Positions 51,541 to 56,267 of a stretch of DNA of 64,000 nt are shown one piece after another; positions within the stretch are counted from its first letter, which is position 1, and every line of letters begins with the position of its first letter. The position numbers and the translations under genes were made by a program. Below the pieces are notes generated by a model. It was not told where the DNA came from, did not search any database, and saw only the letters and a list, made by a program, of their open reading frames with translations. Source of the DNA: Bacteroidales bacterium (GTDB lineage Bacteria > Bacteroidota > Bacteroidia > Bacteroidales > F082); assembly GCA_024710405.1 (NCBI GenBank), contig JANJUV010000020.1, forward strand, positions 62,001-126,000. The letters are read 5' to 3'.

Positions 51541-52896
51541 TCAATAAATATCTGTCAGGGCAAAGTTCTGTTGGTTTGTCTGCCATGCTCCACTGGTGAA
51601 ATCAGGAAATTGCACCAACTGGCCTCCTCCTGCCACCGATGCTTCCGACAATGGGGTGATCACACTCCAGGCTGCGGATTCATACACATCTATCGGAAGT
51701 TTTTCGTTTCGTTTGAGGGCCTCAACGAAGGCATGAACCACAAAGAAGTCCATTCCGCCATGTCCGGCTCCTTTGGCATCGTCGCCATAACGCTTCCACA
51801 GCGGATGGTCGAACTTCTCGAGCCACTGTGCAACTGTCTCCCAGCGGTGTGCCTCCGAAAGCCCCTCAATGTGAATGGAACGGTTTATATCCATCCACAG
51901 CCCTTTGGTTCCCTGCACCCTGAATCCTAAAGAATAGGGACGAGGCAAACTGGTGTCGTGCTGCAGCAAAATGGTTTCTCCCTTTGCCGTGCTGATCATG
52001 GTGGTGACCATGTCGCCCAGTTTGAAATTGACACCAGCATTGGGGTGGTCTTTTCCGCCAAGTTTTACAATATATTCATGTAATCCTCTTGCCTTCGAAG
52101 CCATTGACGAGAGCGCTACAAACCGGTTTCCTGAATCGATATCAATCATTTTGGCCAGAGGGCCGATACCATGTGTTGGATAAAGGTCGCCATTGCGGGT
52201 AACGGAATGTTGTGTGCGCCATTGGGCTTCGGAAAAGCCTTTTTCGCCAAACTCTACCCCACCCCCATAGGGCTGTTTTCCATCATTGAATTTAACTTCG
52301 CGCAAATCATGCTGGTATCCGCCCTGCAAATGAACCAGTTCGCCGAAAATGCCCTGACGCACCATGTTAAGCACCGCCAGCACATCACGTCTGTAGCAAA
52401 CATTTTCGAGCATCATATACTGCATTCCGGTTTGCTCTGATTTCCGCACAACATCCCAATGCTCATCCACAGTGGTTGCCATGATCACTTCGCACCCTAC
52501 ATGTTTTCCGGCATCCATCGCTTCCATGGCCATCGGATAATGCCACTCCCAGGGTGTGGCAATCAACACAGCATCCAGGTCAGTGCGGTTTAGCAATCCA
52601 CGATAAGCATAATCGCTTCCTGTAAACACTTCAGGAGCAGGCTTTCCGGCGTCTTCATAAAGAGCAAGTGCATCTTTCAGCATCACTTCCTGAATGTCGC
52701 AAATTGCAGGCACATCAGTATCATCGCGCCGGAGGCACAGCCGCAGCAATTCCTGTCCGCGCAATCCCGTTCCGATGATTCCCAGTCTGATCCGGCTGTT
52801 GCTTTTGCCGAATATAATCCCTGATGGCAAAAAGGTGAAAGCGCCGCCAGCCAGCAGGCCTGTTTTTAGAAATTGTTTTCTGTTCAGCTCACACAT
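51541..52896 (-). CDS. GH109-like NAD-dependent glycosidase (Gfo/Idh/MocA fold)
   Basis: 451 residues from the ATG at 52896. The N-terminus (MCELNRKQFLKTGLLAGGAF) looks like a Tat-type export signal with NRK in place of RR. A Rossmann NAD site (LGIIGTGLRGQELLR, about residues 37-52) and the C-terminal Gfo/Idh/MocA domain follow. CEVIMATTVDEHWDVVRKSEQTG and MMLENVCYRRDVLAVLNMV match the GH109 group, whose members include alpha-N-acetylgalactosaminidases that use a bound NAD. It heads an operon with a HexNAc-kinase-like and a nucleotidylyltransferase gene. An open frame to 53013 is rejected because the export signal fixes the later start. Confidence 0.82.
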   Translation of the reverse strand: MCELNRKQFLKTGLLAGGAFTFLPSGIIFGKSNSRIRLGIIGTGLRGQELLRLCLRRDDTDVPAICDIQEVMLKDALALYEDAGKPAPEVFTGSDYAYRGLLNRTDLDAVLIATPWEWHYPMAMEAMDAGKHVGCEVIMATTVDEHWDVVRKSEQTGMQYMMLENVCYRRDVLAVLNMVRQGIFGELVHLQGGYQHDLREVKFNDGKQPYGGGVEFGEKGFSEAQWRTQHSVTRNGDLYPTHGIGPLAKMIDIDSGNRFVALSSMASKARGLHEYIVKLGGKDHPNAGVNFKLGDMVTTMISTAKGETILLQHDTSLPRPYSLGFRVQGTKGLWMDINRSIHIEGLSEAHRWETVAQWLEKFDHPLWKRYGDDAKGAGHGGMDFFVVHAFVEALKRNEKLPIDVYESAAWSVITPLSEASVAGGGQLVQFPDFTSGAWQTNQQNFALTDIY

Positions 52897-53060
52897 AGGT
52901 TTTTTTATGCAAGATACATAAGAATGCAAAATCCTGCATGAGGAGCGTAAAATGTTATGCAATTCAGATAATCTATAATGCGATGTTGCCCGGATAAAAG
53001 CTCGCTTGTTCATTAGTCCGGAATACTCCGGTCATCCTGATTGGCCTTGATTACCAGCGA

Positions 53061-55094: not shown

Positions 55095-56267
55095 ATGCTC
55101 AATCTGATTCTGTTTGGTCCTCCGGGCGCAGGAAAAGGCACACAGGCAGGAATGTTGATGTCGCGCTACAACCTGCTTTATATTTCAACAGGAGAAGTGC
55201 TCAGGCAAGAGATCAAAAACGGCAGTCCGCTTGGCCTGAAGGCACGCAACATCATCGAGTCGGGTGGACTTGTAGATGACGAAATCATTGTTCAGGTGAT
55301 CGGGAATGCCATCCGTTCGGAGCAACGCAGCGATGGTTTTCTGTTCGATGGTTTTCCGCGCACCTATGTGCAGGCTTACATACTTGATGGGCTGCTTACC
55401 CGTTTGCACACTTCGCTTAACCGGATTTTTATCCTTGAAGTCCCTGATGAAGTTTGCAAGCAACGTCTCTTACAGCGTGCGACCGAACAGGGTCGAAGCG
55501 ATGATAATGAAACTGTCATCGAGCGCAGGCTTATGGAATACCATCAGAAAACCTTGCCCCTACTCACATTTTACGAAAGTCAGGGATTGCTCACAAGGAT
55601 CAACGGATTGGGTACGGCTGATGAGGTTTTTGCACGGATCAACCAATTTGTTTCTGACGACATTAACAGCAATCCAATCAATCTGATATTATTCGGGTTT
55701 CCCGGAGCCGGACGTGCAACTCAGGCATCTAAACTGGCTTCTGAGTTTAATCTGACTATAATTTCAACCGGAGAGCTATTACAGGAAGAGCTGAAAGCAG
55801 GCAGTCCGGTGAGCAGCGAAATAAAACCTTTCCTCGAAAAAGGACTGCATGTACCTGATGAAATCGTGATCAGGCTTATCGAGAAAAAACTTCAGGAAAC
55901 CGCAGGCAACAGCAGGGGATACATCTTCAAAGGCTATCCGCGAACCCACGTACAGGCATATATTCTGGATGGACTGTTGCGCAAAACCGGCCGCTCAATC
56001 AGCTGTGTTATAAACCTGCAGGTGCCTTTTCTGGAGCTGATCAAGCGGCTGGATGCGAGATCGCAAACATCTTCAAAAATGCCCTACGACAGCAGTGCTT
56101 CGACTATTGTGGCCAGACTTGAGGAGCACCAGTTACGCACCGAGCCTGTTTTGGATTACTACAGAATGCACAATCAGGTAATTGATGTAGATGGTAATGG
56201 CAGTGCCGAAACTGTCTACGAAAGGCTAAAGGAGCCTTTTATACGAACCATCCGAAACCTGAGATAA
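55095..56267 (+). CDS. adk: Tandem-duplicated adenylate kinase, second domain degenerate
   Basis: 390 residues made of two adenylate-kinase-like domains in one chain. Domain 1 (about 1-188) is intact: P-loop GPPGAGKGTQ with K14, DGFPRT, and the short-LID GRSDDNE segment. Domain 2 (about 193-390) keeps the fold and order (GFPGAGRATQ, STGELLQEEL, KGYPRT) but the P-loop lysine is R207, the DGFPRT aspartate is Lys, and the LID motif is lost. The first half probably makes ADP from AMP and ATP; the second may be regulatory or inactive. A frame-preserving internal duplication of a single adk gene is the simplest origin. Confidence 0.88.
   Translation: MLNLILFGPPGAGKGTQAGMLMSRYNLLYISTGEVLRQEIKNGSPLGLKARNIIESGGLVDDEIIVQVIGNAIRSEQRSDGFLFDGFPRTYVQAYILDGLLTRLHTSLNRIFILEVPDEVCKQRLLQRATEQGRSDDNETVIERRLMEYHQKTLPLLTFYESQGLLTRINGLGTADEVFARINQFVSDDINSNPINLILFGFPGAGRATQASKLASEFNLTIISTGELLQEELKAGSPVSSEIKPFLEKGLHVPDEIVIRLIEKKLQETAGNSRGYIFKGYPRTHVQAYILDGLLRKTGRSISCVINLQVPFLELIKRLDARSQTSSKMPYDSSASTIVARLEEHQLRTEPVLDYYRMHNQVIDVDGNGSAETVYERLKEPFIRTIRNLR

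Follow-up and report, generated by a model that had tools for sequence, protein, structure and literature searches.

A Bacteroidales adenylate kinase fused to a conserved and probably inactive second copy

Adenylate kinase is a standard model linking enzyme motion to catalysis, and it has mostly been studied as a lone domain. The window analysed here, a 64,000-nucleotide stretch of DNA from a Bacteroidales genome, encodes a chain in which two adenylate kinase (adk) domains follow one another, the second altered at catalytic sites. Is this double protein real and shared by relatives, is its second half inactive, and what might that half be kept for?

A protein with two adenylate kinase domains

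The open frame of 390 codons runs from an ATG at 55095 to a stop at 56265-56267 and is organized as follows, with D1 and D2 denoting the two halves.

55095-56267, + strand: adk-adk gene of type B (defined below), 390 residues, two Pfam ADK domains, with 16 orthologues in the family and 6 in other families
55095-55655, + strand: D1, residues 1-187, a short adenylate kinase judged to be the catalytic half, with ten catalytic positions intact
55134-55136, + strand: P-loop Lys14 of D1
55347-55349, + strand: Walker-B Asp85 of D1 (in DGFPRT), its role assigned by analogy with Aquifex Asp81 (a table in PMC9599734)
55656-55667, + strand: linker of the halves, around residues 188-191, with fixed spacing across the adk-adk family
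55668-56264, + strand: D2, residues 192-390, a putative pseudo-adenylate kinase (Pfam ADK 128.8 bits; AlphaFold2 model)

The initial annotation of this locus proposed two adk domains in the chain. Indeed, each half scored singly exceeds the Pfam ADK (PF00406) cut-off of 26.8 bits, D1 with 157.1 and D2 with 128.8 bits. With the NCBIfam model NF001381 (cut-off 187 bits), D1 scores above the threshold (213.6) and D2 below it (158.7). The two halves are 38.8% identical. The coordinates given in that annotation and all residues it named, R207, K279 (in KGYPRT) and KMPYD opposite the GRSDD of D1, are correct, and its description of D1 as orthodox agrees with our alignment of 86 full-length doubles: ten of ten catalytic positions are unaltered in every D1, including that of the window, and the P-loop GxxGxGK, the AMP Arg, DGFPR, the LID arginines and GRxDD are present in 86/86. 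From these residues, D1 is judged to be the catalytic half, an ATP:AMP phosphotransferase.

An AlphaFold2 model of D2, built from a 5-sequence alignment, has the adenylate kinase fold (pLDDT 88.2), and its best Foldseek match is 3cm0 (E 1.6e-16). The full-length model (4 sequences) reaches pLDDT 83.7 with a pTM of 0.54 and therefore does not fix the arrangement of the halves; its first Foldseek match, AK8 (9fqr_G8; rmsd 18.9, TM 0.42), is poor beyond one domain.

Compared with the short-type bacterial enzyme (Thermus thermophilus, 3cm0; NF001381, PF00406), D1 is alike in having all catalytic residues and D2 in having the same fold. However, the short-type enzyme is a single domain whereas the window protein has two per chain, and D2 lacks the Walker-B Asp, the P-loop Lys, the AMP Arg and GRxDD. 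The initial annotation knew of no described adk-adk duplication, but such proteins are known in eukaryotes: AK5 and AK8, and multi-domain AK9 too, carry two adk domains per chain, and a passage of PMC10056885 describes AK8, like AK5, as having two complete, active domains. A double adk as such is therefore already known, and what is new is the bacterial form with a pseudo-half, since both domains of AK5 and AK8 are complete whereas the window D2 lacks four catalytic motifs. Searches of the open-licence PMC literature listed no description of an adk-adk from bacteria, nor of a pseudo-half. In a domain tree of bacterial sequences only, the D2s form either a sister group of the D1s or a branch within them, so an origin independent of AK5/AK8 is likely.

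Distribution, ancestry and genomic context

Full-length orthologues of the window gene occur in 16 genomes of the family, with 67-85% identity in 12 other family genomes and 53% in 4 further ones, in answer to the search for relatives suggested by the initial annotation. A tree of the 86 full-length adk-adk sequences splits into type A (n = 63) and type B (n = 23, including the window) with an SH-aLRT of 98. In the domain tree, built after 58 type A rows of the 210 had been thinned out, all 57 D2s fall in one clade (SH-aLRT 99), while the D1s are paraphyletic and one of them (L051) falls with the D2s. The single D2 clade and the paraphyletic D1s argue that, most likely, one event created the tandem and a later copying of it gave rise to A and B.

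Double adks were found in 45 of 60 sampled genomes of the family: 17 have both types, 24 type A alone (among them G035, whose double is split over two contigs) and 4 combine type A with a single adk. Another 14 have a single adk alone, and 1 has no adk match. Of 99 genomes representing 99 families of the order, 25 have a double, the window's genome included, and 5 have no match. No doubles were found in 96 genomes of the class outside the order (2 without a match) or in 79 other genomes of the phylum (1 without a match); this phylum sample includes 18 genomes from the class itself and shares 10 with the class sample. Eighteen loci picked for a long frame or an odd extension contain one adk domain each, and the helix stripe described below is found in 0/18; 15 of them lie outside the order or its doubles, and the order members include G094, G101 and G111. 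In G094, the frame at L139:2659-3984 (- strand) encodes 442 residues with adk at 138-297 and no second Pfam family matched.

Spread on mobile elements was considered and rejected: plasmid and phage tblastn matches are all below 60% identity, and in the best 10 of 216 plasmid and best 10 of 18 phage records they span stretches of about 550-740 bases, as a single adk would, with coverage figures that overstate the match since a single domain aligns to each half of the double. Separately, a contig listed as viral in IMG/VR (L156:3001-3360) ends inside a stripe-bearing D1 of the double type and may be a bacterial fragment.

Protein and PF00406 searches for a separate single-domain adk, a check proposed in the initial annotation, found none in the window's genome, an absence that is not absolute since the assembly is 97% complete. 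They found instead a second adk-adk (G000:C9:86772-87929), 49% identical to the window copy, which comes after an hpt gene (Pribosyltran) with purE nearby. An hpt gene lies immediately upstream of type A in 32 of 33 loci examined and of type B in 0/22, and the window region contains none. Type A is the sole adk found in 24 family genomes, and all 23 type B genomes hold another adk match, which in the 17 that belong to the family is type A. In the six other families, type B is accompanied by a single adk in four genomes (G152, G076, G139 and G115), by type A in G112 and, in G121, by fragments resembling type A where contigs end. Type A is therefore the housekeeping form and type B an accessory one. 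The initial view of the window gene as a central-metabolism kinase thus needs amending: the window gene is an accessory paralogue, and the housekeeping form is the other adk-adk, at hpt.

Several further features of these loci were recorded. An AbiEi/AbiEii-type toxin-antitoxin pair (PF09407 partial, PF08843; L002:92-1206, + strand) adjoins the housekeeping adk-adk in the window's genome, and a Glycosyl hydrolase 109-type protein (PF21252, 299.1 bits) is encoded at 51541-53013 of the window (- strand), upstream of the adk-adk locus. No conserved operon for type B was found past close genera. A TAnnTTTG box, which we take to be a promoter element, lies upstream of the ATG by 25 bases in the window and 24 in L076, and at -58 in L077; it is absent from the other 15 type B loci shown. 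Scans for sigma-70-like promoters and terminators gave nothing useful.

Other arrangements at the hpt locus bear on how such fusions form. In G110 (L137) and G093 (L138) the gene order is hpt, adk-adk, adk, obg, and in G145 (L136), read from the double onward, it is adk-adk, adk, obg. The third adk in these three genomes is separate and catalytically intact. This order suggests local tandem duplication as the source, of which the third adk beside the double is possibly a snapshot. Fusions of hpt with adk (Pribosyltran plus ADK; L140:2449-3567 and L150:2455-3567, both + strand) occur in G092 and G062, from two other families of the order; there too adk is joined to an adjacent gene of the hpt locus, but these proteins pair a phosphoribosyltransferase with just one adk domain.

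Losses, retained residues and a helix stripe

The altered catalytic sites of the window D2 are as follows.

55713-55715, + strand: Arg207 at the P-loop Lys site (Arg in 23/23 type B D2s)
55782-55784, + strand: Gln230 at the AMP-binding Arg site (Arg absent in 23/23 type B, present in 62/63 type A)
55929-55931, + strand: Lys279 at the Walker-B Asp site, in KGYPRT (Lys in 83/86 D2s)
56079-56090, + strand: M329-P-Y-D332 where the GRxDD LID motif is expected (Met first in 20/23 type B; Arg in 61/63 type A)

The exchange of the Walker-B Asp for Lys is the sole catalytic change that is near-fixed across D2s (83/86; type A 60/63), and its exceptions, all type A, have Asp (2) or Asn (1). A table in PMC9599734 lists Aquifex Asp81, the same site as the D2 Lys, as the Walker-B residue. 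Type A D2s otherwise retain the P-loop Lys (60/63), the AMP Arg (62/63) and the AMP-phosphate Arg97 (59/63), with the LID Arg displaced by one column (RxYD) in 61/63. In type B, the P-loop residue is Arg and the AMP Arg is gone in all 23, and the LID position is Met in 20/23. Q101, R128, R132 and R149 are present in 86/86 D2s; these residue numbers, like Arg97, follow AK1 numbering.

The initial annotation called D2 degenerate and probably catalytically dead, which the conservation of the lesions across D2s supports, with Q230 a further lesion that it had not listed. Some of its details apply to only part of the family. The P-loop Arg is conserved in type B (23/23) but is found in only 3/63 type A D2s, and so is not the family-defining lesion; likewise, the GRxDD LID motif is lost in the window D2 (KMPYD) but in type A its Arg has moved by one column. 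Judged from the lesions, D2 is probably inactive. Its degeneracy is conserved, which argues that it is maintained for a purpose besides catalysis.

D2 diverges faster than D1 in most pairs of the four groups compared (64/78, 44/45, 901/946 and 170/171). Within the window clade, D1s share a mean identity of 77.2 and D2s of 72.0%; the corresponding D1/D2 means are 74.9/60.8 for the remaining type B, 72.1/65.3 for type A of the family and 63.3/51.1 for type A from elsewhere. D2 is mostly the quicker-evolving half, yet it is far from decay. The distance from the KT of D1 to the P-loop Gly of D2 is 47 residues in 83/83 doubles measured by pattern, and also in the remaining 3.

Both halves carry a conserved stripe on the helix right after [D/K]G[F/Y]PRT.

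55368-55391, + strand: D1 helix stripe V92-Y95-I96-G99, proposed contact surface
55950-55973, + strand: D2 helix stripe V286-Y289-I290-G293

At the positions of V92, Y95, I96 and G99, respectively, the stripe residue is found in 78/86, 83/86, 85/86 and 85/86 D1s, and in 72/86, 86/86, 86/86 and 86/86 D2s. Y95-I96-G99 is complete in 81/86 D1s and 86/86 D2s and in 0/34 ordinary single adks, and charged residues occupy the four positions in 0/688 cases in doubles versus 51/136 in ordinary singles. The i, i+3, i+4, i+7 pattern is that of a helix-packing face, and we infer that it would face the opposite half. The stripe is the best evidence that the halves may have a joint structural role; it could also have come from fold stability or from inheritance from a single gene before duplication.

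Possible roles of the second half

Together, these features lead us to favour a fused pseudo-dimer, a reading we hold to be fairly probable, in which a working D1 has a dead D2 subunit packed on it that probably tunes D1. D2 would have been born once from a duplicated domain of the D1 kind. The swap of its Walker-B Asp, which organises Mg, for Lys would have turned it into a pseudo-kinase that kept its fold and its distance to D1. The halves would pack via the helix bearing V-x-x-Y-I-x-x-G on each, so that D1 would always have beside it a subunit with no catalysis of its own, one that makes it more stable or governs how it opens and closes. The D2 of type A could still be able to bind a nucleotide, through which D1 would sense adenylate levels. 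In type B, where the P-loop Lys and AMP Arg are gone too, D2 would probably be structural, a docking surface or a receptor for another ligand. The initial annotation had likewise suggested allosteric control or a new ligand. Tentatively, and with more doubt than the pseudo-dimer itself, the housekeeping adk of the order may be an obligate pseudo-dimer of a catalytic half and a nucleotide-reading Walker-B-Lys half, packed through VxxYIxxG and under allosteric control by the adenylate pool, with the pseudo-half of the window copy reading something else.

A docking or moonlighting role for D2, by which the window copy would anchor adk to a partner, has a possible parallel in AK4. Human AK4 is said to be enzymatically inactive, to go by the title of a 2009 report by Liu et al., and the inactive protein reportedly binds the ADP/ATP translocase. 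Like D2, AK4 keeps the adk fold though reported inactive, but AK4 is a separate gene whereas D2 is fused. Type B D2s have lost small-ligand residues and yet have conserved motifs of their own (GRATQ, RLDAR and MPYD), as a docking surface might, but conserved neighbour genes name no partner, the neighbours of type B being common only among close genera, and we consider this explanation unlikely.

It is more unlikely still that D2 remains active as a kinase but works by other chemistry or on another substrate, either metal-free or using another NMP or NDP pair. The type A D2 does retain nearly all phosphate-binding residues, and 2 of 63 have the Walker-B Asp. However, Lys holds that site in 83/86 D2s, the window D2 is also without the P-loop Lys and the AMP Arg, and adk chemistry without Mg is very slow: phosphotransfer figures given in PMC11835391 are >500 per s with Mg versus 7.5e-4 per s without, and a passage of PMC10399197 puts the Mg effect at >44,000-fold.

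D2 could also be a relic of the tandem duplication that is being lost, which would fit its faster evolution and four single adks, from two of the family's genera, that resemble D2 losses. These singles (L126, L127, L128 and L130) lie at the hpt-purE locus, carry the stripe in 4/4 and match D1-specific columns in part (V66, L83 and L108 in 4/4, I65 in 3/4, G58 and V141 in 0/4); L131, likewise at hpt in the same family, is an ordinary single with no stripe. The four are probably doubles in which D2 was lost and D1 survived, going by these residues; they might alternatively descend from an early single ancestor. When D1s and the four singles were kept on one side of a branch, the AU test, on a tree that retained one third of the family type A D1s but no D2 and none of six long-branch singles, did not reject the arrangement (p 0.307), which does not in itself establish a clade. 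In a search for D2 remnants 3' of the singles, covering the four most frequent matches per locus, the most frequent ones fell on the adk gene itself. Against a relic stand the retention of D2 in 25/99 order families sampled and 45/60 family genomes, its conserved lesions and stripe, and its fixed spacing, which make this reading very improbable. A chance or artefact origin, in sequencing or assembly, is virtually excluded by 86 full-length aligned doubles with open frames in independent genomes, and nothing was found in its favour.

Under the favoured pseudo-dimer, a second copy disabled at one defined site and kept across many families would let one ask directly whether an inactive copy can tune an active one. 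Natural controls are at hand in type A, in type B with its further losses and in singles that have seemingly lost the second half. The conserved disabled half suggests that, in these bacteria, a textbook enzyme has acquired a built-in partner or regulator.
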